This document shows, in pieces, positions 5,462 to 28,420 of a DNA stretch of 43,892 nucleotides. The stretch comes from Caldilineaceae bacterium. GTDB taxonomy: Bacteria; Chloroflexota; Anaerolineae; Caldilineales; Caldilineaceae. The DNA lies in NCBI GenBank assembly GCA_026645575.1, contig JAPKMW010000100.1:1-43892 (forward strand), written 5' to 3'. The notes below the pieces were generated by a model. It saw nothing but the letters and a program-made list of their open reading frames with translations. It was not told the DNA's origin and searched no databases. The first letter of the stretch is position 1. Each line of letters begins with the position of its first letter. The position numbers and the translations under genes are program-made.

Positions 5462-5482
5462 TTTGACAAGGAGTAGATGCGA

Positions 5483-7159: not shown

Positions 7160-7235
7160 TAAGACAGTGAGACAGTAGGGCAGTAAGGTTGGTAAGACGG
7201 GAATCAGTCACTGACTCACTGTCTTACTGTCTTAC
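7160..7235. repeat. Intergenic hairpin made of 8-nt phrases
   Basis: TAAGACAGTGAG (7160-7171) is the exact reverse complement of CTCACTGTCTTA (7215-7226). Each arm is an imperfect tandem array of 8-mers of the type TAAGACAG or CTGTCTTA. It fills the spacer between the binding-protein gene and the first permease gene. It may protect the upstream mRNA segment and so raise binding-protein expression over the permeases. Confidence 0.7.
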
Positions 7236-7292
7236 TGCTGTCAACCGCTAACCCTTACTCTTCTCCCCCCAGCCGCCTCTGTGGAGCAACTG

Positions 7293-8588: not shown

Positions 8589-8597
8589 GGGAACTAT

Positions 8598-8689
8598 TTA
8601 CCCCTCCCTACCCCTCCCCTGCAAAGGGCGGGAACCGTTGCGCGCACGACGGTTCCTCCCCCAAGCTGAGGGAGGATAGATGGGGGTGA
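8598..8689. repeat. C-rich intergenic repeat, copy A
   Basis: A long imperfect hairpin between the two permease genes. The inner stem GGAACCGT (8631-8638) pairs with ACGGTTCC (8649-8656), and C-rich 5' sequence pairs with G-rich 3' sequence ending GGGGGTGA. The 3' arm, read on the minus strand, is about 85% identical by eye to the 5' arm of the element at 11791-11872, so the two are inverted relatives of one repeat family. Confidence 0.7.
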
Positions 8690-8728
8690 TTGACTCGTTG
8701 CTTTATAAGAACCAGTGAGGATCTCTTT

Positions 8729-9664: not shown

Positions 9665-9672
9665 AGTAAACT

Positions 9673-11772
9673 ATGTCATCATCACCCGTTCTCAAAGTCG
9701 AAAATCTGGCCGTTGCCTACAAAGTGCGTGGCGGCGAAGTCGAGGCTGTGCAAAATGTCTCCTTTGAAATCCACCGCGGCGAGTCGTTGGGGATTGTGGG
9801 GGAGTCCGGCTGTGGCAAGAGTACCGTGGCCTGGTCGATTGTGAACTTTTTGGGGCGCAACGGCTATGTCAAGCGGGGCAACATCAAGTTTATGGGCCAG
9901 GAACTGGTGGGCAAAAGCGGCGAAGAACTACGCCAGTTGCGCGGCGACCAGATTGCCATGGTCTACCAAGACCCGATGCAAGCGCTCAACCCTTCCATGC
10001 GCCTGGGCGACCAGATGAAAGAGGTGCTGACCGTCCACCGTGGTAGCACCGAGCAGGAAGCCGAGCGCCTCTCTATGGCGATGTTGGAACGGGTCTACAT
10101 GCCCGATCCGGCCAATGTCATGAAACGCTTTCCGCACCAGATTTCCGGTGGTCAGCAGCAACGCGTGGTCATTGCCATGGCGCTGCTCAACAACCCGGCG
10201 CTCTTGATCATGGATGAACCGACCACGGCGCTCGATGTCACCGTCGAAGCGGCTGTGCTCGACCTGATTGCCGAGTTGCGTCGCGACTTTGATACGGCCA
10301 TCATGTTCATCAGCCACAACCTGGGCGTTGTCGCTCGTGTCTGTAACGAGGTGGCGGTGATGTATGCCGGCGAGATGGTGGAACGGGCCAAGGTGCATGA
10401 TCTCTTTGCCCAGCCCCAGCATCCTTACACCCAAGGGCTGATGCGCTGCGTCCCCAAGTTGGGCCAGGATAAGAGTAGCGCCATGCTCTATCCGATTCCC
10501 GGTCGTGTGCCGCCGCCCAACAACCGCCCGACCGGCTGTGTCTTTGGCCCCCGTTGTGATTATGCCAAGGATCGCTGTAAACAGGAGCGACCGCAACTGC
10601 GCAAAATTGATGATGGCGCGACTTGGGTACGCTGCCACTTTGCTGAAGAGATCGATCCAGCCCACTGGGTGCCATCCGAAGAGCTAGCTGCTTCTGTTTC
10701 AACTAAGGCAACCGCCAATGGCGCTACCACTGACGCTGCCAAGCCGTTGTTGGTGGTGCAAGACCTGAAAAAGTATTATCCGGTGCAGGGCAGTTCGCTG
10801 CTCGATCTGGTCGGGTTGGGCAAGAAGCGCTTTGTCAAGGCGGTGGAGAATGCCAGTTTTACCGTCCCCAAAGGCAGTACGCTGGGCATTGTCGGCGAAT
10901 CGGGCTGTGGCAAGAGTACGTTGGTCAAGACCATCATCGGGTTGGAGAACAGCACCAGCGGCAAAGCCGAGTTTATGGGCTTTGACATTACCGGCGACCT
11001 CTCGCAACGCAATGTTACCCTGATCCAAGAGTTACAGATGGTCTTCCAAAATCCCGATTCGACCATGAACCCGGCCTATCCCATCGGCCAGCAGATCGCC
11101 CGCCCCATGATTCGCTTTGGCACCGTGCCGCGCGAACGGGTCCACGACGAAGTGATCAAACTCTTGCAAGCCGTGCGGCTCAACGAAAATTATTATGACC
11201 GCCTGCCCCGTCAATTGAGTGGCGGTGAGAAGCAGCGCGTCGGCATTGCCCGCGCCCTGGCTAGTCGGCCCGATCTGGTGCTTTGCGATGAGCCGGTGAG
11301 CGCGCTCGATGTCTCGGTGCAGGCGGCGATCCTCAACTTGTTGCTCGACGTGCAACAAGAGTACAATACCACCATGATCTTCATTGCCCATGATCTGAGC
11401 GTGGTGCGTTTTTTCTCGGATAATGTGGCGGTGATGTATCTAGGCCAGGTGATGGAGATCGGGCCGGCGGATGCCATCTATGCCCCGCCCTATCACCCCT
11501 ACACCGAGGCGTTGCTCTCTGCCGTGCCGATCCCCGACCCGACGGCCAAACAGGCGCGTATTCGCTTACAAGGAACCGTGCCGAGCGCGTTGAACCCGCC
11601 TAGCGGTTGCCGCTTCCATACGCGCTGTCCGCGACGTCAACTATTGCCAGAGGGGGGGAAGATTTGCACCACCGAAACCCCACCCTGGCGCGAAGCGGGT
11701 GATGGACATAAAATTTTCTGTCACATTCCATTGGAAACGTTGCGCAATTTTGAAGCAGTCGTTCAAGAATAA
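9673..11772 (+). CDS. Fused double ABC ATPase (DppD-DppF in one chain)
   Basis: A 699-residue protein with two complete peptide-importer ATPase domains joined by a short linker. The first has Walker A GESGCGKST at residues 43-51, signature ISGGQQQRV near 158 and Walker B LLIMDEPTTALD near 178. The second repeats these as GESGCGKST near 412, LSGGEKQRV near 515 and LVLCDEPVSALD near 537. Both halves end in the oligopeptide ATPase C-terminal region with Cys motifs (GCVFGPRCDYAKDRC; GCRFHTRCPRRQ), which can bind an iron-sulfur cluster in some family members. All catalytic motifs look intact in both halves. The second importer in this window instead uses two separate genes. The upstream gene ends 8 nt before it, with no strong ribosome binding site, so coupled translation is likely. 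Confidence 0.95.
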   Translation: MSSSPVLKVENLAVAYKVRGGEVEAVQNVSFEIHRGESLGIVGESGCGKSTVAWSIVNFLGRNGYVKRGNIKFMGQELVGKSGEELRQLRGDQIAMVYQDPMQALNPSMRLGDQMKEVLTVHRGSTEQEAERLSMAMLERVYMPDPANVMKRFPHQISGGQQQRVVIAMALLNNPALLIMDEPTTALDVTVEAAVLDLIAELRRDFDTAIMFISHNLGVVARVCNEVAVMYAGEMVERAKVHDLFAQPQHPYTQGLMRCVPKLGQDKSSAMLYPIPGRVPPPNNRPTGCVFGPRCDYAKDRCKQERPQLRKIDDGATWVRCHFAEEIDPAHWVPSEELAASVSTKATANGATTDAAKPLLVVQDLKKYYPVQGSSLLDLVGLGKKRFVKAVENASFTVPKGSTLGIVGESGCGKSTLVKTIIGLENSTSGKAEFMGFDITGDLSQRNVTLIQELQMVFQNPDSTMNPAYPIGQQIARPMIRFGTVPRERVHDEVIKLLQAVRLNENYYDRLPRQLSGGEKQRVGIARALASRPDLVLCDEPVSALDVSVQAAILNLLLDVQQEYNTTMIFIAHDLSVVRFFSDNVAVMYLGQVMEIGPADAIYAPPYHPYTEALLSAVPIPDPTAKQARIRLQGTVPSALNPPSGCRFHTRCPRRQLLPEGGKICTTETPPWREAGDGHKIFCHIPLETLRNFEAVVQE

Positions 11773-14697: not shown

Positions 14698-15089
14698 ATC
14701 GACAATGTTACTGGATTTTAGTGGAAAACATGTTTCAATTTTCTGACAATCTGGCGTTACCATTGCGAACCAGTCCAACGTAAAGTGAATATTCCATTGC
14801 CTAAACCGCTGCTTGTTTTTACTCTGGTGTTTGCTACGCTTTCTTTCCCTTACCTGAACCCAATTCTTACCATTAATTAACGCTTTCGCTGCACCGTTAC
14901 CAGACGGCGCCACGCGTTACCATTGCATAGCCATGCTAAGGGCGATGCGCTTCCTTAGACTGACTTTTGTAACGCCCCCTATGCTATTGTGCGGTTGCGT
15001 TTTTGATCGGTGACTGTTCAATCAAAAACTTAGGTTTTCACTACAGATTCACAATAACTTACCCCAAAAAAGCCTGGTTTCTTTACTTA
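14698..15089. other. Remainder of divergent spacer with GTTACCATT direct repeats
   Basis: No convincing gene is seen here. GCGTTACCATTGC occurs at 14754-14766 and again at 14914-14926, and a related TTACCATTAA lies near 14866. These may be binding sites for a factor acting on the plus-strand secreted-protein gene, but no regulator is identified. A small minus-strand reading frame across 14674-14913 lacks a ribosome binding site and recognisable content. Confidence 0.35.
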
Positions 15090-15956
15090 ATGGATGGGTA
15101 CATGATATTTCACAATCGCTTCCAACGTTTCTTTTGGCTCCTCGTCGGCTGCGGGATTGGCTTACTGCTCTTGTGGGGCAAAGGCGGGCCAGCGTCGATT
15201 CGTGCGCAAGACACGACGGAAAACGATGAACAAAAAGTGTTTCTCCCCTATTTTTCTTCTGGTCGTACTGCGCCGCCTACTGTCATTATTGAAGATGATG
15301 GCCATACTCATCATCACCAACCTCTATCCAACGCCTGGCCCCCTCAGCCCGAAGGGATTGACCAGGTGGTTTGGTTTTCCAATGCGCCTTCGGCAGAGGT
15401 AATTGCGGCGGAGAATGGACTCAAAGCGGCTGCACAACAGACCCTGAATGCGGCTGCCGTTCAAGCCGCACTGGGGGAACGCTTTGTCCAAAGCGCCAGC
15501 GCCTATACGGATGACAAACAGGCGCTCTATGCTGCGCAGAGGCTAGGGCAGCGCGCCCCGACAACGGCGCGTGTGACTTATTTTAGCTATAGCCGCAATG
15601 CAACGGTGGAAGTTTTGGTGCAAGATGGCGCCGTGATCGATGTCAAGAGCATACCCGCCGCCGTCTACCAACCGGAACCGACCAACGGCGAGAAGCAACG
15701 TGCCATCGACCTGGCGCGCGCCTATTTTATGGAGCAAGGCTTTGACCGGGTGCAACAACTGCAAGGCTATGTTATTCAAGCTTATCAACCAGAAGGCGCT
15801 ACCGGTTTTTATGAAAACCGGGTTCTTTATGTCACCTTTCATGCGGGGCTGGATGAGCGCCCTGAATTTGTGGCTTGGGCGGATTTAACCCACGAAACCA
15901 TCAGCAAAGCCTTCCAGGATCAATATCAGGTCACGCCAATCGAGGAGGCTCAGTAA
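15090..15956 (+). CDS. Secreted protein resembling copper amine oxidase N-terminal (N2/N3) domains
   Basis: A 288-residue secreted protein with a hydrophobic signal segment (FFWLLVGCGIGLLLLW) and likely cleavage before QDTTEND. The mature start carries KVFLPYF, an LPxx motif shared with other secreted proteins here, and then a His cluster GHTHHHQP that could bind metal. Residues about 100-280 resemble the small alpha/beta N2 and N3 domains that precede the catalytic domain of copper amine oxidases: VTYFSYSRNATVEVLVQDGA, a helix with AIDLARAYFMEQGFDRVQQL, then VLYVTFHAG and EFVAWADLTHETI. The likeness is by pattern only. ATG 15090 or 15102 could be the start. The next gene, beginning 2 nt after its stop, encodes the matching catalytic-like domain, so the two likely form one split enzyme. 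Confidence 0.6.
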   Translation: MDGYMIFHNRFQRFFWLLVGCGIGLLLLWGKGGPASIRAQDTTENDEQKVFLPYFSSGRTAPPTVIIEDDGHTHHHQPLSNAWPPQPEGIDQVVWFSNAPSAEVIAAENGLKAAAQQTLNAAAVQAALGERFVQSASAYTDDKQALYAAQRLGQRAPTTARVTYFSYSRNATVEVLVQDGAVIDVKSIPAAVYQPEPTNGEKQRAIDLARAYFMEQGFDRVQQLQGYVIQAYQPEGATGFYENRVLYVTFHAGLDERPEFVAWADLTHETISKAFQDQYQVTPIEEAQ

Positions 15957-15958: not shown

Positions 15959-17239
15959 ATGCGCCGACAATCTTTGTTACTCATCACCTGTTTGCTCTTG
16001 GGTCTGCTACTGCCGCCCACCGCGACGCCAGTGCAGGCGCAAAGCAGCGCCACCGCCGGCACGGTGGCCTGGAACGGTTGGTCATTCAGCTATGAAGTCA
16101 GCGGCAACTATGATGGCCTTTCGCTGCGCAATGTGGCCTATAACAGCACATCGTTACTCTATAAAGTTACCTTTCCGGTTATGCGCGTTTTTTACACCGA
16201 TAACCTGTGCGGCCCCTATGCTGATCGCATTGGCCCCGATGCACTGGCGCCAATTTCTTGGGCAAATGATGCGTTGTTGGTGCAACGTGAATTTACCCTC
16301 AATGGGCGCCAGTGGCTGGAACTTGGGATTCGCGCCTTGATCGGCAATTATGACATTTACCAGAGCTACTACCTAAGCCAGGACGGCATGTTGGATGCCC
16401 ATATCTTTAGTCGTGGCTTGCAATGTAATGCTGATCATGAGCATTACCCCTATTGGCGGCTTGATTTTGAAGTGGATGGTGCCAACAACCAGATCTGGCG
16501 CGAGACCGCCAGCGGTTGGCAGCTCTTAAGCACAGAATTTGACCTCGCAGCAACGACAGCCTTGAACCACCGTTGGCAGGTGCGCAACCCACAAACCGGC
16601 GCAACAGTCGCCGTATTACCTGGCTTCACCAACTTTACCGTACCCGGGGACAATCTGCCCGTTGGCGATTACGCCAATCACCAACTTTTTGGTCGCTTCT
16701 ATCGTGCCGCGGAAGACACCACCTGGTATTATGGCGCTCTTGCTGAAACACCCTTTAACAATGGCGAGAACATTGATAGCCAAGACCTGGTTCTCTTTTA
16801 CAAAGCCTACCTGGCCCATTCGGTGGCGGAAGGACCGGATCTCTGGCATTCCACCGGCGTACGGTTGGCCTTCCTGGGCAATGCCGGCGGCGGCAACCCA
16901 ACGCCAACGCCCACCCCCTTGCCCCCGACGCCAACCCAGACGCCAACTCCGGCGCCGACAATCGCCCCCACAGCGACACCAACTCCCAGCGCATCCGCTT
17001 GTTCTACCGGCGGCGGACGTAGCACCTATATCAACTTTGTCAATGCCACGAGCCGGACGGTTTATGTCTATTGGGTCGATTACAACTGTAATGAACGCTT
17101 CTATAAAGCCCTCTCGCCCTGGCGTTCCTACTGGCAACAGACCTATGGCAATCACGTTTGGCGAGTCTACGATGGGTCGAACCGGTTACGCAAACAAGTG
17201 ACCGCACCAAATTATTCGACAACAGTTTATATTCGTTGA
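15959..17239 (+). CDS. Secreted copper amine oxidase-like protein with VHL-beta-like C-terminal domain
   Basis: A 426-residue protein with a signal peptide (residues 1-28). Residues 35-310 match a compact copper amine oxidase catalytic domain. GLSLRNVAYN...LLYKVTFPVM is at 54-75. GNYD at 129-132 contains the Asn-Tyr-Asp motif whose Tyr becomes topaquinone. HEH at 160-162 and H287 (AYLAHSVAEGPDLW) align with the three copper ligands. RLDFEVDGANN follows the His pair, as in the family. The Tyr-to-His spacing is about 20 residues shorter than usual, and the catalytic-base Asp is uncertain (D81 or D89). A Thr-Pro linker (314-343) leads to a domain like the VHL beta domain (355-426). GAGGAGG precedes the ATG by 10 nt. 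If active it would oxidise primary amines to aldehydes with hydrogen peroxide release. Confidence 0.75.
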   Translation: MRRQSLLLITCLLLGLLLPPTATPVQAQSSATAGTVAWNGWSFSYEVSGNYDGLSLRNVAYNSTSLLYKVTFPVMRVFYTDNLCGPYADRIGPDALAPISWANDALLVQREFTLNGRQWLELGIRALIGNYDIYQSYYLSQDGMLDAHIFSRGLQCNADHEHYPYWRLDFEVDGANNQIWRETASGWQLLSTEFDLAATTALNHRWQVRNPQTGATVAVLPGFTNFTVPGDNLPVGDYANHQLFGRFYRAAEDTTWYYGALAETPFNNGENIDSQDLVLFYKAYLAHSVAEGPDLWHSTGVRLAFLGNAGGGNPTPTPTPLPPTPTQTPTPAPTIAPTATPTPSASACSTGGGRSTYINFVNATSRTVYVYWVDYNCNERFYKALSPWRSYWQQTYGNHVWRVYDGSNRLRKQVTAPNYSTTVYIR

Positions 17240-17455
17240 GCAGCGGTAACTATTCCGGCTGTGGCTCCCGATGGCTGAATAGTCATGCGCATCGGTTCTT
17301 CGACATGGTTGTAAAAGAAAGGGGGCGAATGACATAACGATTCAACATCCTGTTTTATCACATTGATTGTCAAGCCGTTCTAACAGAAATCAGCAATGAA
17401 TCTTTTCTACAATGTACAAAAACATCAAGGTACAAAAGCAACGATGAGGACCACA

Positions 17456-19918
17456 ATGCAAAAGATCTATCGACATTTGTCCCTTCTGGTAACACTCCTT
17501 TTGATCGGTGGGATGCTGTTGACTCCCAACGCTGGTCAAGCTGCACCGGTGTTCCAAGAAAGCGGCGATGATAGCGCCGGCAAAGCTTATCTCCCTGTGA
17601 TCGCTGTTCCGGGGCAGGCCGAAACTTCTGCCGCCCCGTTGACGCCGGATCAATATAATTCGGAAAGCGAAGAGGCGCCAACACTGGCCGAAGGTCAGGT
17701 GCAAAGCTCCACTTGTTGGACCTACATCAAATTTACCAACAGCAGCAGTTACAGCATTAGGATCTACTGGATCAACTATTCTGGCGGCGAATCTCTCTAC
17801 AAAACGCTCTCTGCTGGTTCTTCGTACTGGCAACAAACCTTTTATGGTCACAAGTGGCGTGTGCGCGATACTGCGGGCAACTTGCTAAAAAGCGTTACAG
17901 CCAATAGTTGCAGCAATATCTATGTGACGATCTATAACAGTGACTTCCCGCAACCAACGGCTACACCAACCCCAGCACTTGGCTCGATTGCTGATCGGGT
18001 TTGGGATGATCTGAATCGCAATGGCTTGCAGGATAGTGGTGAGCCAGGAATTTCCGGTGTGCGGGTGGAACTTTGGGTGGACTCCGATAATAACGGCAGC
18101 CATGATACCCTGGTTACCAGCACCACCACCAACAGCAGTGGGAACTATAGCTTTACTGGTCTGAACACTAGCAAACGCTATGTTGTTAAGTTCTCCTTGC
18201 CCACCTGCTATGTCTTCACTACACCAAATGTGGGCAGTAACGACGCTATCGACAGTGATGTCACCGTCTTCTCCTATGGCGGCACAGATTTGATCTCGCT
18301 CGCCACGAACCGCAATCGGACCGATGTGGACGCCGGCATGTACAACAACTGCCAGCCGACAGCGACACCGACGAAAACGCCAACGCCAGCGCCCCAACTT
18401 GGCTCCATCGGCGATTTTGTCTGGAATGACTTCAATCGCAATGGCATTCAGGACGCCGGCGAACCGGGTGTGGCCAATGTGACCATGCAATTGAAGGATT
18501 GCGGGCAAAGTCTGATCCGCACCACCACCACCAATGGCAGCGGCGCCTATAGCTTCACGGGGTTGAGCGCCGGCTGTTATATCATTGGCATTGTGGTGCC
18601 GGGCGGCTTCCAAATCAGCCCCAAAGCCCAAGGCACCAATAACAACCTGGATAGCGACATCAACATTGGCAATGCCATGAGTGATGCCATCAACCTGGGC
18701 GCGGGTCAGAATATTACCAATATCGACGCCGGTATCAACCAACCGGTCGCGCCAACGGCCACGCCAACCCCGACCAACACCCCGGCGCCGCAACTTGGCT
18801 CGATTGGCGACCGCGTTTGGAATGACTTCAACCGCAATGGCATCCAAGAAGCGGGTGAACCGGGGTACGCCGGTGCGCTAGTCCAGTTGAGGGATTGCAA
18901 CGACAATGTCTTGCAGAACGTCAACACCGATGGCAACGGCCTCTACCGCTTTAGCAATTTGTCTGCTGGTTGCTACCGGGTTAGCGTCGTGTTGCCGGGC
19001 GGCTTCCAGTTTAGCCCGCAAGACCAAGGCGGCAATGACAACACCGACAGCGATGTCAACCCTGGCAACGGCACAACCGCCAACATCAACCTGGGCGCCG
19101 GCCAGAACATTGACAATGTGGACGCCGGCATCAATCAACCGGTGGCCCCGACGGCCACGCCGACCAATACCCCGGCGCCCCAACTTGGCTCCATCGGTGA
19201 CACGGTTTTCCGTGACGTCAATGGCAATGGTGTGCAGGATGCGGGTGAAGCAGGTGTCCCCGATGTGACCGTGCAGTTGAAGGATTGCAGCGGCAATGTC
19301 TTGCAAAGCACAACCACTAATGGCAGCGGCAACTACAGCTTTGGCAACCTAAGCGCCGGTTGTTACACCATCACTGTTCTCCTGCCCGGCGGCTTCACCT
19401 ATAGCCCGCAGGATCAGGGCGGCAATGACAATATCGACAGCGACGTAAACCCCGGTAACGGCACAACCGCCAACATCAACCTGGGCGCCGGCCAAAACCT
19501 GACTAATGTCGATGCCGGGTTGGTTCCGCAAAGTGGTGGCGGTGATACTTGTATCGGCGACCGCACCTGGCGCGATAACAATGCTAATGGTATCCAAGAC
19601 CCCGGTGAACCAGGGCTGGACGGCATTGAAATCTATCTGGGGACTGATAATAACAACGATGGTCGTATCGACCGCTACTTTGGTAGCACCATCAGCGCCA
19701 ATGGCGGCCAATACCAATTCTGCGGCCTCGACCCGGCCATCACCTACGCCGTCGAATTTGTCCCGCCCGGCTTCTGTGGCTTTACCTTGCCAAATGTGGG
19801 CAGTGATGACACCATCGACAGCGATCCTGATCTCAACAAAGGGATTGCCAACGGGGTCGTCGTTGTCAGCGGGGTGAGCAACAACACCATCGACGCCGGT
19901 TTTGTCTGCCACGACTAA
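17456..19918 (+). CDS. Secreted protein: VHL-beta-like domain plus five SdrD-B modules
   Basis: An 820-residue extracellular protein. It has a signal peptide (1-30), an LPxx motif (KAYLPVI, 43-49) and a VHL-beta-like domain at about 87-160 (YIKFTNSSSYSIRIYWINYS; YWQQTFYGHKWRVRD). Five SdrD-B-type modules follow, from about 175 to the end. Each opens like GDRVWNDFNRNGIQDAGEPG, a Ca-binding-type loop, and closes like DSDVNPGN...NVDAG. Modules 1-4 are joined by PTATPTPTNTPAPQ linkers. SdrD-B modules act as rigid spacers on bacterial surfaces. ATG 17456 is chosen because AGGA lies 5 nt upstream; in-frame ATGs at 17396 and 17444 have weaker sites. There is no LPxTG anchor or enzyme domain. It probably serves as a structural or adhesive matrix protein. 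Confidence 0.88.
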   Translation: MQKIYRHLSLLVTLLLIGGMLLTPNAGQAAPVFQESGDDSAGKAYLPVIAVPGQAETSAAPLTPDQYNSESEEAPTLAEGQVQSSTCWTYIKFTNSSSYSIRIYWINYSGGESLYKTLSAGSSYWQQTFYGHKWRVRDTAGNLLKSVTANSCSNIYVTIYNSDFPQPTATPTPALGSIADRVWDDLNRNGLQDSGEPGISGVRVELWVDSDNNGSHDTLVTSTTTNSSGNYSFTGLNTSKRYVVKFSLPTCYVFTTPNVGSNDAIDSDVTVFSYGGTDLISLATNRNRTDVDAGMYNNCQPTATPTKTPTPAPQLGSIGDFVWNDFNRNGIQDAGEPGVANVTMQLKDCGQSLIRTTTTNGSGAYSFTGLSAGCYIIGIVVPGGFQISPKAQGTNNNLDSDINIGNAMSDAINLGAGQNITNIDAGINQPVAPTATPTPTNTPAPQLGSIGDRVWNDFNRNGIQEAGEPGYAGALVQLRDCNDNVLQNVNTDGNGLYRFSNLSAGCYRVSVVLPGGFQFSPQDQGGNDNTDSDVNPGNGTTANINLGAGQNIDNVDAGINQPVAPTATPTNTPAPQLGSIGDTVFRDVNGNGVQDAGEAGVPDVTVQLKDCSGNVLQSTTTNGSGNYSFGNLSAGCYTITVLLPGGFTYSPQDQGGNDNIDSDVNPGNGTTANINLGAGQNLTNVDAGLVPQSGGGDTCIGDRTWRDNNANGIQDPGEPGLDGIEIYLGTDNNNDGRIDRYFGSTISANGGQYQFCGLDPAITYAVEFVPPGFCGFTLPNVGSDDTIDSDPDLNKGIANGVVVVSGVSNNTIDAGFVCHD
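18395..19530 (+). repeat. Three tandem SdrD-B repeats of about 390 nt
   Basis: The units starting near 18397, 18793 and 19183 each encode one module plus linker. The third and fourth modules of the protein are nearly identical over stretches of DNA, for example a shared 30-nt or longer run encoding GTTANINLGAGQN near 19070 and 19460. This indicates recent duplication or gene conversion. Repeat number may vary between strains, and the region could be misassembled from short reads. Confidence 0.8.
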
Positions 19919-19941
19919 GGGTTTGTCAAAGAATCGCTGTT

Positions 19942-20000
19942 GCTCCTTGCAAGTCCGTGACTTGCCTTAGCGAGTTACGAGTTACGGACTCGCAAGGAGC
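19942..20000. repeat. Long-hairpin repeat family, copy 1 (divergent)
   Basis: Arms of about 21 nt beginning GCTCCTTGC (19942) and ending GCAAGGAGC (20000), with two mismatches. Both arms contain AGTCCGTGACT or a one-base variant. The same words are found in the elements at 20061, 25509, 26622 and 42503. It lies just after the SdrD-B gene. Confidence 0.75.
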
Positions 20001-20060
20001 GGTGGACGACGTTATATTTTTGCGAACCCTAAGTTGCCGTTCTTTGGTCGTAACTATCAG

Positions 20061-20124
20061 CCCGCTCTCAGCCGGTCCATGACCGGCGTCCCCAAACGCC
20101 GGTCATGGACCGGCTGAGAGCGGG
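20061..20124. repeat. Long-hairpin repeat family, copy 2 (perfect 29-bp arms)
   Basis: Left arm 20061-20089 and right arm 20096-20124 are exact reverse complements over 29 nt, around a 6-nt loop. The arm starts CCCGCTCTCAGCCGGTCC. There is no T-run, so this is not a standard terminator. It would make a very stable RNA hairpin, or a cruciform in DNA. Confidence 0.9.
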
Positions 20125-20255
20125 TCGGAGTTTCTGCACGTCTATGTTTATCACCCGGATGTGGGACTGTTGTAAGCTTTCGGTAGGGCCTGACAACGGG
20201 CCATGCTGCTGGTTGCTGACCATTGTTTGGCTTTTGTCGAATCTAATACTCATGC

Positions 20256-20291
20256 AAAAAGCCCAGTATTTACCAAGATGCTGGGCTTTTT
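20256..20291. terminator. Intrinsic terminator, usable on both strands
   Basis: AAAAAGCCCAG (20256-20266) pairs with CTGGGCTTTTT (20281-20291) across a 14-nt loop. The stem has a T-run on both strands. It lies in the 532-nt spacer between two secreted-protein genes and ends the transcript of the upstream one. Confidence 0.85.
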
Positions 20292-20450
20292 GTTTGATTG
20301 TTGTTGCGTGAATTTTGTAAGCTAGATGTTACAAGAAAGGGTCTGTTCTTGTGGTTAAATAAAACCGCTTTTATCCAACATGTTCATGGATCGCCAACTA
20401 CTTCATTGACACCCCTTAATCTATGGCACAATCTCTGATGATAGGGTACT

Positions 20451-22262
20451 ATGCGGGCAAAGAAAAATTTCCGATTGCTGCTTCTGAGCTTATTGAGTGT
20501 AGGCGTCTTGTTGGCCTATAGTCTACTTGCTATCCAAACGCAAGTCATTGCTGATTCGGCGGCGCCCACTCGCCGTCAGGCCGACAGCACTGCTGCGCTC
20601 TTCTTGCCCGTCATCCACAAAGGGGGGAATCAATCTCCGCTTGTTAGTGAACCGCGTTTGCCGGATAGTTACTCATCCGAACAGGATGATCCGCCCCCTT
20701 TGCCGGAGGCGCCACAAACCGGTGCGTGTCAAAGTCTGATTCGGTTTTCCAACTATACCAATTACCCCATCTATGTCTACTGGAATCGTCCCGATGAGAC
20801 CGATGTTTTTTACAAGCTGCTCAACTCCGGCCGCCAGTATTGGCAGCACACTTATCTAGGGAACCAGTGGAATATCCGTGATGATCAAGGACGTTTGATC
20901 AAAAGCATTACGGCGGCCCGCTGTGATCACTCCTTTGTTGACATCTATATCGGCGATTTACCGGCTTGTGGCCGAATCACAACCGTTGCGCTCTGGGATC
21001 TAACTACGGATGGTCCCGTCCCTGGTTTTGACGCAATGACCAGCGGCGCCGTCATTCCGCTGGAACAGTTGGTCAACGCGAATCTACGAGTTAATGTGCA
21101 GGAAGTGATCGAAAGTATCAAATTTGATCTCAACGGTGTAACGAGCATCAGTAATGTCGGCCCCTATAGCTACCCGGCGCCCCAGCAGGCTTGGGAAGCA
21201 GAGGCCGGCGTTTACACCCTGGTGGTTGAAGCCTATCGTCAAAATGACGCCCAAAGCGCCCTTTGTGACCAGCGCCGCCTTACGTTGCAAGTTGGCGACT
21301 CAATAACGCCGGTTGCAACCATAACGCCAACCGCCACTGTCATCGCAACGCTTACCCCAACGGCTACCGTAAGTCCAACGTCCACACCCTCTGTTACCGC
21401 AACCGTGACGCCCACAACCCCGATGACGCCAACCGTGACGCCAACTAGTACGCCGTCGCCCACCATGACCCCCACGCTCTGTTCGGGGCGCATCACCGAT
21501 CTACGCCTCTTCAACTTGGCGACGGGGCAGGTGATCGCCGCCTACAATTCTTTGTCTGATGGCGCCGTCATTGATCTGGCGACCTTGCCGACGCGTTTCA
21601 ATTTGGATGTTGGAGTTAGCGGCTTGGTGGAAAGTGTAACGATTCTGGTGAATGACGCTCTTATTGTGGAAAGCTTTGCGCCCTACCGCTATCCTGGTGG
21701 TGATATTGTCCCGTGGCAACCAGCGCCGGGCATCTATACCATTCGGGTAGCTGCCTATAGTCAAGATAACGCCGACGGGTTTCTCTGTGATGTCAAGCTA
21801 CTCTATATAACCTTTGTCAACAGCGCCCCGACGCCCACCCCGACCGTGACGCCGACCCCCACCGCCACCAATACACCCCCGCCGTCATTGGATGCCAATT
21901 GTATTGGCGACTGGGTCTGGCGCGATAGTAACGCCAATGGCCTGCAAGATGGCGGTGAGCCAGGACTGGCCGGGGTGCCGGTCTATCTTGGCCCCGATGC
22001 TGATAACAATGGCCGCCTTGATCGGATTCTCGCCACCACCACAACTGACAGCAGCGGACGTTATGCCTTTTGCGCCCTGACGCCAGGCACTTACCTGATC
22101 GAATTTGGTGCGGTGGATGGCTGTGTCACCACGCTTGATCATCAGGGCAGCAACGATGCCGTGGACAGCGATGCCAGCGTCGGGTTTGGCATATCACCAT
22201 CCATTGTAGTAACTGCCGGCAGCGCAAATAGTACAGTCGATGCCGGTTTCATCTGTAACTGA
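20451..22262 (+). CDS. Secreted protein: VHL-beta-like domain, two paralogous beta modules, one SdrD-B module
   Basis: A 603-residue extracellular protein. It has a signal segment (FRLLLLSLLSVGVLLAYSLL), an LPxx motif (ALFLPVIHKG) and a VHL-beta-like domain near 93-170 (YVYWNRPDE; YWQHTYLGNQWNIRDD). Two related modules of about 105 residues follow, beginning CGRITTVALWDLTTDGPV and CSGRITDLRLFNLATGQV. Both contain an ES-(I/V)-x-(F/I)-x-(L/V)-N strand and end in a Cys-containing strand; they look like immunoglobulin-like beta sandwiches. A Thr-Pro linker separates them, and a second leads to a final SdrD-B module (CIGDWVWRDSNANGLQDGG to the end). It ends 5 nt before the convergent ATPase gene with no terminator between them. 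The domain set matches the upstream secreted protein, so the two are paralogous parts of one surface system. Confidence 0.85.
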   Translation: MRAKKNFRLLLLSLLSVGVLLAYSLLAIQTQVIADSAAPTRRQADSTAALFLPVIHKGGNQSPLVSEPRLPDSYSSEQDDPPPLPEAPQTGACQSLIRFSNYTNYPIYVYWNRPDETDVFYKLLNSGRQYWQHTYLGNQWNIRDDQGRLIKSITAARCDHSFVDIYIGDLPACGRITTVALWDLTTDGPVPGFDAMTSGAVIPLEQLVNANLRVNVQEVIESIKFDLNGVTSISNVGPYSYPAPQQAWEAEAGVYTLVVEAYRQNDAQSALCDQRRLTLQVGDSITPVATITPTATVIATLTPTATVSPTSTPSVTATVTPTTPMTPTVTPTSTPSPTMTPTLCSGRITDLRLFNLATGQVIAAYNSLSDGAVIDLATLPTRFNLDVGVSGLVESVTILVNDALIVESFAPYRYPGGDIVPWQPAPGIYTIRVAAYSQDNADGFLCDVKLLYITFVNSAPTPTPTVTPTPTATNTPPPSLDANCIGDWVWRDSNANGLQDGGEPGLAGVPVYLGPDADNNGRLDRILATTTTDSSGRYAFCALTPGTYLIEFGAVDGCVTTLDHQGSNDAVDSDASVGFGISPSIVVTAGSANSTVDAGFICN

Positions 22263-22267: not shown

Positions 22268-23257
22268 TTACGGCGCGTCAACTAACAAACAGGCGATCCG
22301 ATGCTCTTTACCCACCGCCACTGTGGCCGGATCAACTGTCTGGCACTTTGTCATGGCGGCCGGACAACGCGGGTGAAAGCGGCAACCGGTCGGCAGGTGG
22401 ATCGGATCAGGCGTCTCGCCTTGTAAGATGATCCGCTGTCGGCGTAACCGCGGATTGGGCGCTGGCGCCACCGAGAGTAACGCCTTCGTGTAGGGATGCT
22501 GCGGGTTTTGCAGAACGGTCAGCGTTGGCCCGATTTCGACAATACGGCCTAAATACATAACCGCAATGCGGTCGGCCAGCGACGCCACGGTGTTGAGATC
22601 GTGGGTAATGAAAATGATCGAAATCCCCCGTGTGCGCCGCAGATCGGCCAACAGGTTGAGAATCTCGGCGCGGATACTGACATCCAGCATCGACACCGGC
22701 TCATCGGCCAGCAACAGGGTTGGTTCCAGCACCAGCGCACTGGCAATCGCCACCCGCTGCCGCTGCCCGCCGGAGAGTTCATGGGGCCGTCGGTTGATAA
22801 AATGCTCCGCCGGTTTCAACCCGGCATCTTCCAACGCCCGGATCACACGCTGCCGCCGTTCCTGTTTGTCAGGCGCCAGGCCATGCACTTGTAGCGGCTC
22901 GGCTACCGTTTCGCCAATGGTTAGCAGTGGATTCAACGACTCGTAAGGGTCTTGGAAGATCATCTGTACATGGCGGCGCATGAGCTTCAATCCAGCCAGA
23001 TCAAGCTGCGTCACCTCTTTGTCTTCAAAATAGATTCGTCCGGTCGTCGCCGCTTCCATGCCCAAAATCGTCAATGCGAGGGTACTCTTGCCGCACCCAC
23101 TTTCACCAACCAGCGCCAATACTTCGCTACGGTTAATGGTAAAGCTAACATCATCCACGGCGTGGACAAACTCAACCGGTTTGCGCCAAAGACCAGCGCG
23201 TCCAATGGGGAACAGCTTGCGCAAATGGTCAACCTGTAATAGCGGTGACGCGTTCAT
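22268..23257 (-). CDS. ABC importer ATPase, DppF-like
   Basis: A 329-residue ATPase of the oligopeptide/dipeptide importer family. Walker A GESGCGKST is near residue 52, the Q-loop MIFQDPYESLNPL near 98, the signature LSGGQRQRV near 158, Walker B LLLADEPVSMLD near 180 and the switch His in FITHDL near 213. The C-terminal extension GCRFHPRCPAAMTKC carries the Cys pattern typical of the family. Its ATG overlaps the end of the DppD-like gene by 29 nt, so translation is coupled. It is the last gene of the second importer operon. Confidence 0.93.
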   Translation of the reverse strand: MNASPLLQVDHLRKLFPIGRAGLWRKPVEFVHAVDDVSFTINRSEVLALVGESGCGKSTLALTILGMEAATTGRIYFEDKEVTQLDLAGLKLMRRHVQMIFQDPYESLNPLLTIGETVAEPLQVHGLAPDKQERRQRVIRALEDAGLKPAEHFINRRPHELSGGQRQRVAIASALVLEPTLLLADEPVSMLDVSIRAEILNLLADLRRTRGISIIFITHDLNTVASLADRIAVMYLGRIVEIGPTLTVLQNPQHPYTKALLSVAPAPNPRLRRQRIILQGETPDPIHLPTGCRFHPRCPAAMTKCQTVDPATVAVGKEHRIACLLVDAP

Positions 23258-24398
23258 CTTCGCTTCTTTCTTGCCCTACTAAAAAACAACTTGCAGTATG
23301 TCCCGGCGCAACCGCATAAAGGGGCGGCTGATTTGTCTGACAGCGAGCAAAGGCTGCCGGGCAACGGGGTGCAAAACGGCAACCCGGCGGCAAGGCATCC
23401 AGCCGCGGCGGATAACCGGGAATGGCGGCCAACCGGCCATTGGGACGGGTCAGATCAGGGAAGGCTTTGAGTAGCTCCTGGGTATAGGGGTGACGGGGTG
23501 CGTTGTAGATCGTATCCACATCACTGTACTCGGCCACCACGCCACCATACATGACCAGCACGCTGTCGCAAATTTCCGCCACCACCCCCAGATCATGGGT
23601 GACAAAGAGGACAGAAAGCCCCAACTGTTCGCGCAAACGGGCTAATAACTCAAGAATTTGCGCCTGTACCATCACATCAAGTGCTGTGGTTGGCTCATCG
23701 GCAATCACCACTTCCGGGCGACAAGCGAGCGCCATCGCGATCATGGCGCGCTGCCGCATCCCGCCTGAATATTGGTGCGGATATTGATCACGCCGATTGG
23801 GGTTGATGCCGACTAAATTGAGTAGCTCATCGACACTCCGTTGCAAGATCGCTTTGTTGGTAATCTTTTCGTGGGTGGCAATCGATTCGGCAAGTTGGCT
23901 TCCGATAGTGCGGGTAGGGTTTAGTGGCTTGGCGCCATTGAGCGGAGGGTGGTGGCCATTCGTATGCGCGTCGTTGACCTGTGGCAGGAGGTAAGCGCTC
24001 GTAGGCATCGTATGGCGGGCAATCGGTTCGGCGATCTGGCTACCGACCGTGCGCACCGGATTGAGGGCATTCATGGCGCCTTGAAAGATCATAGAAATGT
24101 TCTTCCAGCGCACATCGGCCATCGCGTTTTCGCTGAGACCCAGCAGATCCTGTCCCAGAAAGCAGATCTCGCCCCCAACAATGCGTCCCGCCGCCGGCAA
24201 CAGCCGCATCAAACTGAGCATGAGCGTGCTTTTACCACAGCCACTTTCGCCCACAATGCCCAGCATCTCGCCCCGGCGCAGGTGAAAACTGACCTGACGC
24301 AGCGCATGGGCCGGCGGCTTACCGGTGGCAACGTAGTCAACCGACAAGTTGCGTACGTCGAGCAGGAGTGGAGGGTTGTCGTCATTATTGGTGTTCAT
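23229..24398 (-). CDS. ABC importer ATPase, DppD-like, with internal duplication
   Basis: A 389-residue ATPase when started at ATG 24398, which has AGGAAC 6 nt upstream. An in-frame start at 24467 would translate the intergenic repeat and is rejected. Walker A GESGCGKST, signature YSGGMRQRA, Walker B VVIADEPTTALD and switch FVTHDL are intact. Downstream of the Q-loop, NALNPVRTVGSQIAEPIARH is followed 47 residues later by KPLNPTRTIGSQLAESIATH, a duplicated segment that makes the protein about 45 residues longer than usual. The extra material lies in the helical subdomain that touches the permease. The C-terminal Cys motif GCRFAPRCPAAFARC is present. Confidence 0.92.
   Translation of the reverse strand: MNTNNDDNPPLLLDVRNLSVDYVATGKPPAHALRQVSFHLRRGEMLGIVGESGCGKSTLMLSLMRLLPAAGRIVGGEICFLGQDLLGLSENAMADVRWKNISMIFQGAMNALNPVRTVGSQIAEPIARHTMPTSAYLLPQVNDAHTNGHHPPLNGAKPLNPTRTIGSQLAESIATHEKITNKAILQRSVDELLNLVGINPNRRDQYPHQYSGGMRQRAMIAMALACRPEVVIADEPTTALDVMVQAQILELLARLREQLGLSVLFVTHDLGVVAEICDSVLVMYGGVVAEYSDVDTIYNAPRHPYTQELLKAFPDLTRPNGRLAAIPGYPPRLDALPPGCRFAPRCPAAFARCQTNQPPLYAVAPGHTASCFLVGQERSEDERVTAITG
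23877..24068 (-). repeat. Internal duplication within the DppD-like gene
   Basis: The DNA at 23877-23927 and that at 24018-24068 are about 75% identical by eye (both begin GGCAATCG), offset by 141 nt or 47 codons. The duplication kept the reading frame. The two copies have diverged, so it is not recent. Confidence 0.75.
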
Positions 24399-24424
24399 GA
24401 AGAAGTTCCTAATATTAGGTGTTA

Positions 24425-24484
24425 GGTATTGGGTATTGGGTATTAGATATTGGCGGGTATAGGTCATGGCAAATACCCAATACC
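24425..24484. repeat. Intergenic hairpin made of 7-nt phrases
   Basis: GGTATTGGGTATT (24425-24437) is the exact reverse complement of AATACCCAATACC (24472-24484). The left side is a tandem series of GGGTATT-like heptamers. It separates the DppD-like gene from the upstream DppC-like gene, within the operon. Confidence 0.8.
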
Positions 24485-24488
24485 GTCG

Positions 24489-25415
24489 CTACTGTACCGA
24501 TATTTCCACCGCAGCCTGACCAGTCGCCGGCCGCACCACCATCTCATCGCCAACGGAAAGATGGTGCGTTTCGAGTTTGGGATTAAAGATGCGTTCCAGG
24601 CCATTGCCCAACAGCGTCAAGCCGAGGACAACCCAGATGATGGCAAAGCCAGGGGGGGCCAGCACCCACCAGGCGCCGGCGCTCATGGCGCCGCGACGAA
24701 AGGCAAAGTTGAGCATCTGCCCCCAGCTCAAGCGGGTCGGATCGCCTAAGCCGAGAAAAGCCAGCGTACTTTCGTTGAGGATCGCTGCCGAGATGACCAA
24801 CACAGCATTGACCACCATGAGTGGAAAGACCAACGGGAAGATATGGCGCCGGACAATGTAGAAATTACCGGCGCCAATGGCGCGAGCGCGCTGGACAAAT
24901 TTGCGTTCCCGCACCGAAAGCGTCTGCGCCCGCACCACACGGGCCGTGCCGGTCCAGCCCAGAATGCCGATCACCAGAATGAGGATGTCCAACCCACGCC
25001 CCAGCAGCGCGATCAGGACGATCATCAGCGGCAGATCGGGGATGACCAACAAGATGTCGGTGATGCGCATGAGCAGATTATCGACCCGATTGCCATAAAA
25101 GCCGGCGATCAACCCAACCATCCCGCCGATGACCAGCGAAATAAAGGAGGCAAAGAAGCCGACGATCAACGAAACGCGCGCCCCATAAATCACGTTAGAC
25201 AGCACATCCTTGCCGGCGTCATCGGTGCCTAGCCAGTGGGTTGCGTTGGGCGGGGCATAGATATTGTCGATGGTCACACGCACCGCGGCATTGGGGTCAA
25301 AAGGCGCCAGCCAGGGCGCTAACACTGCCATCACCACCACCACTAGGAGCATTACCGCCCCTAACACCGCCATCCGATTGCGCAAAAAGAGCGGCCAAAA
25401 GCCGTCAATGCTCAT
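24489..25415 (-). CDS. ABC importer permease, DppC-like
   Basis: A 308-residue permease. TM1 is MAVLGAVMLLVVVVMAVLAP. The family segment HWLGTDDAGKDVLSNVIYGA is near residue 75, four to five more spans follow, and the EAA loop RARAIGAGNFYIVRRHIFP is near 195. The length is usual for DppC. GGAGGAATAAGG lies upstream of the ATG. It belongs to the second importer operon, between the DppB-like and DppD-like genes, and is bounded by hairpin repeats on both sides. Confidence 0.92.
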   Translation of the reverse strand: MSIDGFWPLFLRNRMAVLGAVMLLVVVVMAVLAPWLAPFDPNAAVRVTIDNIYAPPNATHWLGTDDAGKDVLSNVIYGARVSLIVGFFASFISLVIGGMVGLIAGFYGNRVDNLLMRITDILLVIPDLPLMIVLIALLGRGLDILILVIGILGWTGTARVVRAQTLSVRERKFVQRARAIGAGNFYIVRRHIFPLVFPLMVVNAVLVISAAILNESTLAFLGLGDPTRLSWGQMLNFAFRRGAMSAGAWWVLAPPGFAIIWVVLGLTLLGNGLERIFNPKLETHHLSVGDEMVVRPATGQAAVEISVQ

Positions 25416-25508
25416 TGTGATAAACCTTATTCCTCCAAAAACAGTAGGTGCGGTTGCAAACCCATCGGCATGGCGCTAAGTGCGCGTCTACCAATAAGTT
25501 CCCGATTT

Positions 25509-25567
25509 GCTCTGTGCGAGTTCGCGACTGGCCCCATCCGGTTGCGAGTCACGGACTCGCACAGAGC
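25509..25567. repeat. Long-hairpin repeat family, copy 3 (imperfect)
   Basis: GCTCTGTGCGAG (25509-25520) pairs with CTCGCACAGAGC (25556-25567). Pairing continues inwards through AGTTCGCGACT and AGTCACGGACT with mismatches. It lies in the 160-nt gap between the two permease genes of the second importer and shares the GTCCGTGACT word with the other copies. Confidence 0.8.
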
Positions 25568-25575
25568 GGATTGCC

Positions 25576-26538
25576 CTATCCAACGCGCACGCGCGGGTCA
25601 AGATAACTATAGAGCAGATCAGCCAGCAAGTTGGCGCAAATCACACTGACTGCCAGCAATAGAAAAGCCCCTTGTAAAATGGGGTAATCCTGGCGATCAA
25701 CAGCATCAACAATCGCTTGCCCCAAGCCCGGCCAGGAGAAGACCGTCTCGATCTCAATCGCGCCGGCCACGGTGAAACCAAGGTTAAGCGCCACCACCGT
25801 CACCGTTGGCAACATGGCATTGCGCAGGGCATGGTCGCGCAGAATTTGCATGGAACGCAGACCCTTGGCCTTGGCGGTAAGAATGTAATCTTCCGAGAAA
25901 ATTTCCAAGATGGCGCTGCGCATAAAGAGGGTATATTGACCGGCATAAATGATCGTATAGGTCAAGGTTGGCAATAGCGCATGGCGACCAATGTCCAACC
26001 ACCGTTCCCACCAACCGGCATAATCGGCTCCAACCGTCAGCTTGCCGCCAATGGGCAAGCCTAGTTGACTCGACCCCCAAAAGAGCAGAATGATGCCAAA
26101 CCAGAAGGTCGGCGCCGCCCAGGCCACCAGACTGCCGATCAACACACCGTAATCCAACACGGTCTGCGATTTCCAAGCCGCCAGCACCCCCAACGCCATG
26201 CCCAACAGAATCGAAAAGAACGTCCCGGCGCCAATGAGCAGGAGTGTATTTCCCAAACTTTCGGCCAGAATGGTAGCAACCGGTCGCTGCTGATGAAAAC
26301 TGGACCCCATATCGCCCTGTAACAAATTGCGCACATAGAGCAGGAACTGAACATAGAGCGGCTGATCCAATCCAAAGCGCCGCTGAATCGCCTCAATGCT
26401 CTGCTGCGTCAGGCGCGGATCCTTCACCGCCCGCGCCGGATCGCCCGGCAGAATCCGAAAGAGAAAAAAGTTCAACACGATGACAAAGACAATCGTCATC
26501 AAAGCCCAGCCAATTTTGCGTAGAACATATTGATTCAT
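25576..26538 (-). CDS. ABC importer permease, DppB-like
   Basis: A 320-residue permease. It has TM1 (IGWALMTIVFVIVLNFFLF), then the classic FRILPGDPARA and RFGLDQPLYVQFLLYVRNLL segments, GDMGSSFHQQRPVATIL, and the EAA loop LTAKAKGLRSMQILRDHALR. The length is normal for DppB, in contrast to the enlarged homologue at 7293. ATG 26538 is chosen because the longer frame to 26655 would translate the hairpin repeat. It is the second gene of the operon after the binding protein. Confidence 0.92.
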   Translation of the reverse strand: MNQYVLRKIGWALMTIVFVIVLNFFLFRILPGDPARAVKDPRLTQQSIEAIQRRFGLDQPLYVQFLLYVRNLLQGDMGSSFHQQRPVATILAESLGNTLLLIGAGTFFSILLGMALGVLAAWKSQTVLDYGVLIGSLVAWAAPTFWFGIILLFWGSSQLGLPIGGKLTVGADYAGWWERWLDIGRHALLPTLTYTIIYAGQYTLFMRSAILEIFSEDYILTAKAKGLRSMQILRDHALRNAMLPTVTVVALNLGFTVAGAIEIETVFSWPGLGQAIVDAVDRQDYPILQGAFLLLAVSVICANLLADLLYSYLDPRVRVG

Positions 26539-26561
26539 GACCGTCAATTTTAGGAGTCCAC

Positions 26562-26735
26562 CGTGATTCATGCTGCGTGATTCGTGGCCTGAGTCTGTCG
26601 GAGACGTAACTACCAAGCCCACCCGCTCTGAGCCAGTCCGTGACTGGCGACCCAATCGCCAGTCACGGACTGGCTCAGAGCGGGCTTAGTAGTTGCTTGG
26701 AGACAACAAATCACGCAGTACGAATCACGAATCAC
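26562..26735. repeat. Composite intergenic hairpin: long-hairpin copy 4 nested in a heptamer array
   Basis: The core has perfect 29-nt arms at 26622-26650 and 26656-26684, beginning CCCGCTCTGAGCCAGTCC, around a 5-nt loop. The pairing extends outwards through AACTACCAAG (26608-26617) and CTTAGTAGTT (26685-26694). Outside that, GTGATTC-type and GAATCAC-type heptamers at 26562-26587 and 26709-26735 also pair. The right side runs into the stop codon of the binding-protein gene. It separates the abundant binding protein from its permease, a classic place for an mRNA-stabilising hairpin. Confidence 0.88.
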
Positions 26736-28420
26736 TTCACCGCTTCCACCTGCTGTAACACCGTCACACTCTCCAACATCAATGTCGGCGCATCGGTGAT
26801 CCAGCCGGTGAAACGGTCGGTGCGGTACGCTTGGACCGTTTGTTGGTAATAGGGGATGATGTAGACGACATCGTTAAAGACAATCTCCTGCATCTGGAAG
26901 ACGATCTCCCGCCGTTTCTCGCGATCCAGTTCAACGGCTTGTTGATCGTAGAGGGCGTCATAATCGGCGTTGGCATAGCCGGTCTCGCTGCTGCCGGTGG
27001 AAATTTGGTCGGTGCGCATAACGCCCAGCGGATCGTTGGGATCCGGCCCCCAACTCCACCCCCAGATCATGATATCAAAGTCAAAGGCCGGACAGCAGGC
27101 TGCCGTCAGCGCATCGGGATCGACTGCTTGCGGCTCCACTTTGACGCCAATTTGGCCCCAACTCTGGCCCAGCAACTCGGCAATGCGCGGCGCTTCGGGA
27201 ATATCATTTGGCCATTGGATCCGGAAGATAAGCGGCTGGCTGCCGTCGGGCATTTCCCGCACGCCATCGCCATCGCTGTCGTTGTAGCCGGCCTCATCCA
27301 GCAGTTGGTTGGCCTTGGCAATGTCAAAGGCGTAATCTTGTAGGTTAGGGTTATACCAATAGGCTTGACCGGCGGCCACTAGGGTCAACCCCGGTTGCGC
27401 CAGCCCCAGCATAGCGACATCAATGATGTTTTGCTTATCCGTGGCATGGGCCAGCGCCAGCCGCACCGTGCGATCCCGCAGCGCCGGGTGGCCGGTGCAT
27501 TTGCCATCCTCCGGCGGACAATTCTCCGGAGCCAACTGATTGAAGATAATATCGCGCACAGACGGGCTAAGCGGCGCGCCGCTGACGACAGCCACATTTT
27601 CGGTGCGCTTCAAGACCGGCACCGCCGTGTTGGGCATCTCGGTGATCATGTCCACCTGTCCCGTCACTAGCGCTTGCACCAGCGCATCTTCATTGCCAAA
27701 GGTCTGAAAGATCACCTCGGCCACATTGGGCGGACCGTCAACATAGTCAGGATTCGCCACCAGATGGACAAATTCATTCTGCTTATATTCTTGCATCTTG
27801 AAGGGACCAGTGCCGATCATTGCTAAGTTCTCAAATTCAGCAGCGGCGTTGCCCTCGGCATGTTGCGACCAGATATGTTCCGGCAGAATGTAGAGCGCCA
27901 GCAGTTGACTTTCTAGGTTCGGAATGGCCTCGGTGAGCGTCAAGACGACGGTCTTGTCATCGGGCGCTTCAATCGTGTCAAAGTAGATGGTATAGAAATT
28001 GAGGTAGGGGAAATCTTCGTGGGCCTTATAGAGATTAAAGGAGAAGGCCACATCTTTTGCCGTCATCGGCTGCCCGTCATGGAATTTTAAGCCCTGGCGG
28101 ATAGTGAAGGTCCATCTCTTGCCATCATCACTGGTGGTGACTGTTTCGGCGGCATCCAGGCTAAAGGTGCCGTCAAAATTCAGCTTGTAGAGCGTGTTGT
28201 AGACCATGTCATAGACGACATAGGCTTCGGCCAGAATGCCGACGCCGGGGTTGAGCGTATCGGGGCTGCCGGGCCAGCCGATGCGCAAGGTGGCCGGCGT
28301 ACTGGTTGCATCCCCCGTTGACGCCTGACCACCGGCGGGCGCGGCGGTCGGATTACCGGCGCAAGCAGTTAACAAAAAGAGCAACAAAGGAAGTAGCCAT
28401 CGATGCCCGTTGCGTTTCAT
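26732..28420 (-). CDS. ABC importer substrate-binding protein, family 5 (lipoprotein)
   Basis: A 562-residue binding protein of the DppA/OppA family. It has a Sec lipoprotein signal with lipobox LLTAC near residue 20 and a Gly/Ala/Thr spacer. Core segments are LKFHDGQPMTAKDVAFSFNL near 110 and MIGTGPFKMQEYKQNEF near 205, with the family C-terminal region at YANADYDALYDQQAVELD. AGGAGA lies 6 nt before the ATG. A Cys-rich loop, NCPPEDGKCTGHP near 290, is not usual. It heads the second importer operon. The ligand is not predictable; oligopeptides or related solutes are typical. Confidence 0.93.
   Translation of the reverse strand: MKRNGHRWLLPLLLFLLTACAGNPTAAPAGGQASTGDATSTPATLRIGWPGSPDTLNPGVGILAEAYVVYDMVYNTLYKLNFDGTFSLDAAETVTTSDDGKRWTFTIRQGLKFHDGQPMTAKDVAFSFNLYKAHEDFPYLNFYTIYFDTIEAPDDKTVVLTLTEAIPNLESQLLALYILPEHIWSQHAEGNAAAEFENLAMIGTGPFKMQEYKQNEFVHLVANPDYVDGPPNVAEVIFQTFGNEDALVQALVTGQVDMITEMPNTAVPVLKRTENVAVVSGAPLSPSVRDIIFNQLAPENCPPEDGKCTGHPALRDRTVRLALAHATDKQNIIDVAMLGLAQPGLTLVAAGQAYWYNPNLQDYAFDIAKANQLLDEAGYNDSDGDGVREMPDGSQPLIFRIQWPNDIPEAPRIAELLGQSWGQIGVKVEPQAVDPDALTAACCPAFDFDIMIWGWSWGPDPNDPLGVMRTDQISTGSSETGYANADYDALYDQQAVELDREKRREIVFQMQEIVFNDVVYIIPYYQQTVQAYRTDRFTGWITDAPTLMLESVTVLQQVEAVK

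Follow-up and report, generated by a model that had tools for sequence, protein, structure and literature searches.

Predicted secreted proteins of a Caldilineaceae bacterium carry VHL-type beta domains with a conserved, putative hydroxyproline pocket

We analysed a 43,892-nucleotide stretch of DNA from a Caldilineaceae bacterium (contig JAPKMW010000100.1 of assembly GCA_026645575.1; hereafter the window). Three neighbouring genes on its forward strand encode proteins, herein P1 (15959..17239), P2 (17396 or 17456..19918) and P3 (20451..22262), that each carry a domain resembling the beta domain of the von Hippel-Lindau protein (VHL). Judging from sequence profiles and from a structural model of the P2 domain, the VHL homology, the fold and a constraint centred on the hydroxyproline pocket are established. 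We propose that P1-P3 are modular proteins secreted to the cell surface, in which a bacterial VHL beta domain acts as a small, putatively hydroxyproline-binding unit, a reading to which we assign a probability of about 45%.

The presence of a VHL-beta-like domain in three neighbouring proteins, as an earlier note on this DNA had claimed, was confirmed by several comparisons. The Pfam VHL family (PF01847, curated cut-off 21 bits) scored 22.7 bits in P1 (domain at 17000..17236) and 25.8 bits in P2 (17711..17938). The Pfam scan of P3 gave no VHL match at E<1, and its domain (20724..20948) was placed by the family alignment, in which it aligns to the other VHL domains without a gap through the pocket. 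A small profile matched the P3 domain at E 6.1e-31, a value that is not independent because P3 was itself one of the seven profile seeds. The evidence from a single sequence is weak, since a phmmer search with the P1 domain alone reached just E 0.39-1.1; of the 25 chains retrieved, 24 were VHL and one was HIV glycoprotein 120 (E 0.55). A 37-sequence profile (A2) retrieved 24 VHL sequences at E 2.2e-9 to 2.1e-8, followed by fibronectin (E 0.48) and a zinc finger protein (E 0.9), and no other beta fold was assigned.

The model of the P2 domain superposed on human VHL residues 68-155, beginning with model residue 2 on VHL residue 68. This offset sets model W22, T45, H49 and W51 on VHL W88, S111, H115 and W117, with the inner register inferred jointly with the gap-free sequence alignment because the superposition gives the range ends alone. 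The Trp and His residues are thus not placed away from the VHL pocket, and the model has the VHL beta-sandwich fold. Taken together, profile homology and model superposition put the VHL likeness beyond chance, and on these grounds we regard homology and fold as firm. The human VHL beta domain (PDB 1lm8, 1lqb and 4awj) has in common with the bacterial domains the seven-stranded beta sandwich of residues 68-155, the pocket W88, Y98, S/T111, H115 and W117, and N78. Unlike human VHL, the window proteins lack the alpha domain by Pfam, have signal peptides (by eye), are fused to enzymes or stalks, and belong to a group in which H110 is mostly replaced. The Pfam matches of P1-P3 at E<1 included no family of the Elongin-binding VHL alpha domain; P1 ends with the beta domain, and P2 and P3 run on into linkers and repeats.

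The sequence alignment also bore out the pocket residues that had been paired by eye in the earlier note, from whose start codons the residue numbers are counted. Human W88, Y98, S111, H115 and W117 correspond to W372, Y382, T395, H399 and W401 in P1 and to W105, Y115, T128, H132 and W134 in P2; both proteins carry all five pocket residues, with Thr at position 111. P3 has four of the five (W111, Y121, T134, N138 and W140), with Asn at the position of H115. This Asn, already remarked in the note, is family-wide (25 of 25 P3-family members), and it probably indicates a changed affinity or ligand. Two P3 relatives carry an organism name, one being from Caldilinea sp. CFX5 and the other from a Caldilineaceae bacterium.

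Conservation was compared among 71 bacterial domains, comprising the window's three, relatives found through P1, P3 and the L016 domain, two cyanobacterial plasmid domains, and domains from the genome searches. These fell into 29 clusters at 60 percent identity, and the 57 well-filled columns were ranked by entropy. The lowest entropies belonged to N78 and W88 (tied), followed by W117, H115, S/T111 and Y98, so that the five pocket columns occupied ranks 2-6. None of 200,000 random five-column picks matched their conservation, in a test that ignores the general conservation of Trp and His and the retention of domains by VHL-type profiles. W88 was found in 29/29 clusters, with N78 as the sole other invariant column, W117 in 28 (one Phe), S/T111 in 28 (one Ala), H115 in 27 (one Asn, one Gln) and Y98 in 23. 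S/T111 and H115 were jointly kept in 26 of the 29 clusters; with both Trp added the count was 25, and with all five residues it was 21. The H110 column was variable, Gln being the commonest residue, and the P3 family had His there in 25/25. The P1 family, which was retrieved with full-length P1, serves as a partial check on the selection bias of VHL profiles; it kept W88, T111 and W117 in 19/19 each, H115 in 18/19 and Y98 in 14/19. All five positions were kept in 10/10 of the S9-peptidase fusions described below, and four further domains had W88, T111, H115 and W117 in 4/4 and Y98 in 3/4. These comparisons argue strongly that the bacterial pocket is under constraint.

The roles of these positions have been described for animal VHL. 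According to passages of PMC6105673, S111 and H115 of human VHL bond the ring hydroxyl of hydroxyproline, Y98 bonds its carbonyl, and H110 contacts the flanking backbone of the hypoxia-inducible factor (HIF) peptide. Missense changes at S111, H115, W117 and W88 are very poorly tolerated, as stated in part of PMC11250436. As reported in sections of PMC4195687, Drosophila VHL has Thr at the Ser111 position, as the bacterial domains do, together with the other four pocket residues, and a pull-down showed that it binds the HIF degradation domain; unlike the bacterial proteins, it is an E3 ligase receptor with an alpha domain binding Elongin C. The retained residues suggest, without proving, that bacteria use the VHL pocket to grip hydroxyproline- or proline-containing proteins.

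We determined the distribution of PF01847 in genome searches, in each of which 0/14 control genomes matched. In the class to which L008, an Anaerolineales record, belongs, 2/199 genomes had the domain, as did 6/98 and 1/12 genomes of the respective families of these two positives. In the phyla of a Bacteroidia record, a Kiritimatiellae record and a Rhodocyclaceae record, it was present in 1/198, 10/194 and 2/299 genomes. PF01847 undercounts, as evidenced by genome G089, which gave one match yet holds at least three such domains by our own profile.

In all ten VHL-bearing genomes of the Kiritimatiellae-phylum sample, Pfam placed a VHL domain ahead of the matched dipeptidyl peptidase IV (DPP-IV) propeller part and an S9 peptidase domain. 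The fusions (L033-L037, L045-L048 and L050) occupy open frames of 779 to 943 codons with VHL in the N-terminal third, and one of the ten genomes also has a 132-aa frame holding the VHL domain alone. The closest solved relatives of one fusion are DPP-IV-type enzymes. Such S9 peptidases (PDB 2d5l, 5olj and 2ecf) share the peptidase part with the fusions, by the match to solved relatives for one and by Pfam for ten, whereas the VHL domain ahead of the matched propeller part is an addition. In the single protein from the Bacteroidia-record phylum (L044:4673-7531), a pair of VHL domains is accompanied by laminin G-like domains and a caspase (C14) domain. Anaerolineae-class genomes have VHL with HEFAH (L039:153-1286) and HEILH (L062:1438-2601) motifs, in HExxH-like regions that look by eye like metallopeptidases and match no other Pfam family; they also have VHL in SH3_3 proteins, attached to a PD40 propeller, or as two VHL domains with no other partner. 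VHL occurs with ricin B lectin and MliC domains in the Rhodocyclaceae-record phylum. Given that fusion partners vary across these bacterial groups, the VHL module is widely exchanged, often with peptidases.

Other collections were searched as well. Viral contigs yielded no match to the P2 VHL domain, and plasmids yielded two cyanobacterial single-domain proteins with this domain and one distant oxidase match with P1. A protein search with the L016 VHL region returned 2 proteins only. The 10 loci from a contig search with whole P2 were rejected, as the matches lay in its SdrD part and not in the VHL domain; PF01847 was found in 0/7 genomes of these loci, where the controls were silent too, so that absence is not shown. 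A bacterial VHL domain has been described in EMK97_00595 of Litorilituus sediminis, which is likewise predicted to be secreted and has the beta domain by Pfam/CDD at weak scores; PMC9002001 argues for tumour-suppressor activity, and the parts of it examined hold no cross-bacterial comparison of pocket residues. Beyond that paper on bacterial VHL, our search of mainly open-access literature (top-ranked matches only) found no publication on bacterial pocket conservation or VHL-peptidase fusions, nor was the bacterial pocket constraint found in print there.

Given that S/T111, H115 and the aromatic box are kept, whereas the residue in contact with the flanking HIF peptide, H110, is usually replaced, we infer that the pocket would hold a prolyl ring, most likely 4-hydroxyproline. 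The ligand may lie in a foreign hydroxyproline-rich protein of the extracellular-matrix, plant or algal type. The VHL domain would then bring the P1 amine oxidase, and peptidases elsewhere, to hydroxyproline-rich polymers, and P2 and P3 would present it as adhesins on SdrD-type stalks.

We next considered whether VHL-bearing genomes could make or use hydroxyproline. In the Kiritimatiellae-phylum sample, the prolyl-hydroxylase-type family PF13640 occurred in 4/10 VHL-bearing vs 15/184 other genomes (Fisher p 0.0096, before any correction for genome size or relatedness). Within the family of G089, PF13640 occurred in 12/98 genomes at E<=0.001 and in 1/98 over the cut-off. A Pfam scan of 24 window proteins found no 2-oxoglutarate (2OG) oxygenase and no PF13640-type gene. 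PF05544, which we take to hold hydroxyproline epimerases, was found at E<=0.001 in 3/10 VHL genomes vs 19/184 others. The hydroxylase link is mixed, and since the evidence from PF13640, the window and PF05544 is mixed or null, the ligand, if hydroxyproline, more likely comes from another organism than from the bacterium itself. Four PF13640 frames (804-847 aa) resembled the S9-VHL proteins in length; the two examined, L053:2194-4674 (827 codons) and L054:681-3221 (847 codons), hold the PF13640 domain and nothing else in Pfam at E<0.01. In the VHL-bearing genome G691, one open frame (L057:1053-2924) has Cupin_8/JmjC-type and 2OG-FeII_Oxy_3 domains.

Several observations weigh against the proposed hydroxyproline-binding role. 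At least one pocket residue is missing in 8/29 clusters, and just 37/71 domains have all five because the P3 family (25 domains) is without His115. Most groups were retrieved with a VHL profile, and every one of the 71 domains had passed a VHL-type profile, which favours pocket-bearing copies. PF13640 was found in 0/6 VHL-bearing genomes of the family of G089, in a search that did not extend to other oxygenase families. PF05544 scored over its cut-off in 1/10 VHL genomes vs 16/184 others, which gives no clear link to hydroxyproline catabolism. When an S9-VHL fusion is aligned to 2d5l, differences appear at the residues presumed to lie near the specificity pocket, and post-proline cleavage by the S9 fusions is therefore not a given. 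N78, outside the listed pocket residues, is conserved equally strongly, and W117 is also named as a core residue of VHL in a passage of PMC3688787, so that the conservation is partly structural.

These points bear on what the pocket is kept for. A kept and working pocket might serve another ligand, such as an unmodified proline-rich peptide, another hydroxylated residue, a sugar or a small molecule. The absence of PF13640 from the six genomes, the unclear tie to hydroxyproline catabolism, the replacement of His115 throughout the P3 family and the wide range of unrelated partners (SH3_3, ricin B lectin, MliC and the PD40 propeller) fit such a ligand, which we nevertheless consider somewhat unlikely, as both hydroxyl-binding positions are jointly kept in nearly all clusters and human VHL did not bind an unhydroxylated HIF-2alpha peptide (passages of PMC6105673). 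It is still less probable that the conserved residues mainly form a folding core, in a domain that takes no ligand in its pocket and acts as a generic spacer of beta-sandwich type or as a module for binding partners. The place of W117 in the VHL aromatic core, the conservation of N78 and the frequent position of the domains as add-ons at or near a protein end would agree with this. However, the passages of PMC3688787 on the aromatic core do not name S111, H115 or Y98, and they predict that Y98H leaves the human structure virtually unchanged, while also reporting lower stability in vitro; other core positions vary more, the F76 column having Phe in 21/29 clusters and the F119 column in 3/29.

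The earlier note had suggested that the domains dock on proline-rich segments of the same system. The co-occurrence of domain and Pro-Thr linkers in P1-P3 would suit such an assembly device, but we found no support for it and regard it as very improbable. In a class search with P1, 180/396 genomes matched, and most of the matches listed fell in the Pro-Thr linker stretch, which indicates that these linkers are generic in the class. The lack of PF13640 in the six genomes and in the scanned window proteins likewise speaks against linker docking, and we did not follow it because a hydroxyproline ligand is more likely to be of foreign origin.

In animal oxygen sensing, VHL reads prolyl hydroxylation, and targeted protein degradation makes much use of it as a handle; complexes of proteolysis-targeting chimeras (PROTACs) fill the match list of VHL structures. 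A bacterial family with this pocket but no ligase part would be a possible evolutionary source of the animal reader, would allow a direct test of the pocket's first purpose, and would supply reagents in the form of small soluble proteins that bind hydroxyproline. Pseudomonas is described (in part of PMC4543633) as having a PHD-related prolyl hydroxylase, PPHD, that acts on EF-Tu; its counterpart would be a reader from bacteria whose pocket is intact. We raise, as a speculation that is more probably wrong than right, that the VHL beta domain is an ancient hydroxyproline reader, secreted by bacteria to direct peptidases, oxidases and adhesins to hydroxyproline-rich polymers, from which the animal reader was recruited via an Elongin-binding tail, as PHD has bacterial relatives.

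The three proteins are likely secreted, as each begins with a signal peptide identified by eye. P1 continues with a compact copper amine oxidase domain (16058..16864; PF01179, 39.1 bits, E 5.7e-10), a Pro-Thr linker and the C-terminal VHL domain. P2 has its VHL domain followed by five SdrD B-like repeats as a stalk (17993..19915, start by eye; PF17210, 507.9 bits in 5 stretches), with Pro-Thr linkers. P3 has the VHL domain, two unnamed repeats (by eye), Pro-Thr linkers and one SdrD B-like repeat (21903..22250; PF17210, 103.6 bits).

P1 gave no sequence match to solved proteins at E<1. In the columns of its oxidase family, the tyrosine of an NYD motif was kept in 113/114 members, both His of a His-x-His motif in 114/114 each and a further His in 112/114. 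From the motifs, the tyrosine is the putative cofactor residue and the His residues are putative copper ligands. P1 shares the Pfam match, and putatively these residues, with copper amine oxidases; it differs in being compact, in having a separate upstream gene and in lacking a match to solved oxidases. Relatives of the oxidase list other add-on modules alongside it, presumably P-domain, dockerin, TSP3, fibronectin III, Ig and others. The upstream gene (15003..15956, forward strand) ends 2 bp before the P1 ATG and matches no Pfam family (best E 0.097, under the cut-off); by eye, it is perhaps the separated N-terminal, cystatin-like part of the oxidase. The gene L058:556-1467, similar to it by eye, precedes a P1-type oxidase (L058:1471-2379), so the two genes may form a unit; the L058 DNA ends inside the oxidase and is uninformative on a VHL domain there.

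On either side of the VHL cluster lies a set of oligopeptide-type ABC transporter genes, one at 5477-11772 (the part 9673-11772 by eye) and the other at 22268-28420. This fits peptide scavenging, and such transporters are common and have mixed substrates. Elsewhere in the window, neighbouring PALP enzyme, ThiF-rhodanese and Prok-JAB genes (33330-37048) form a group resembling what we take to be a sulfur-carrier cysteine pathway.

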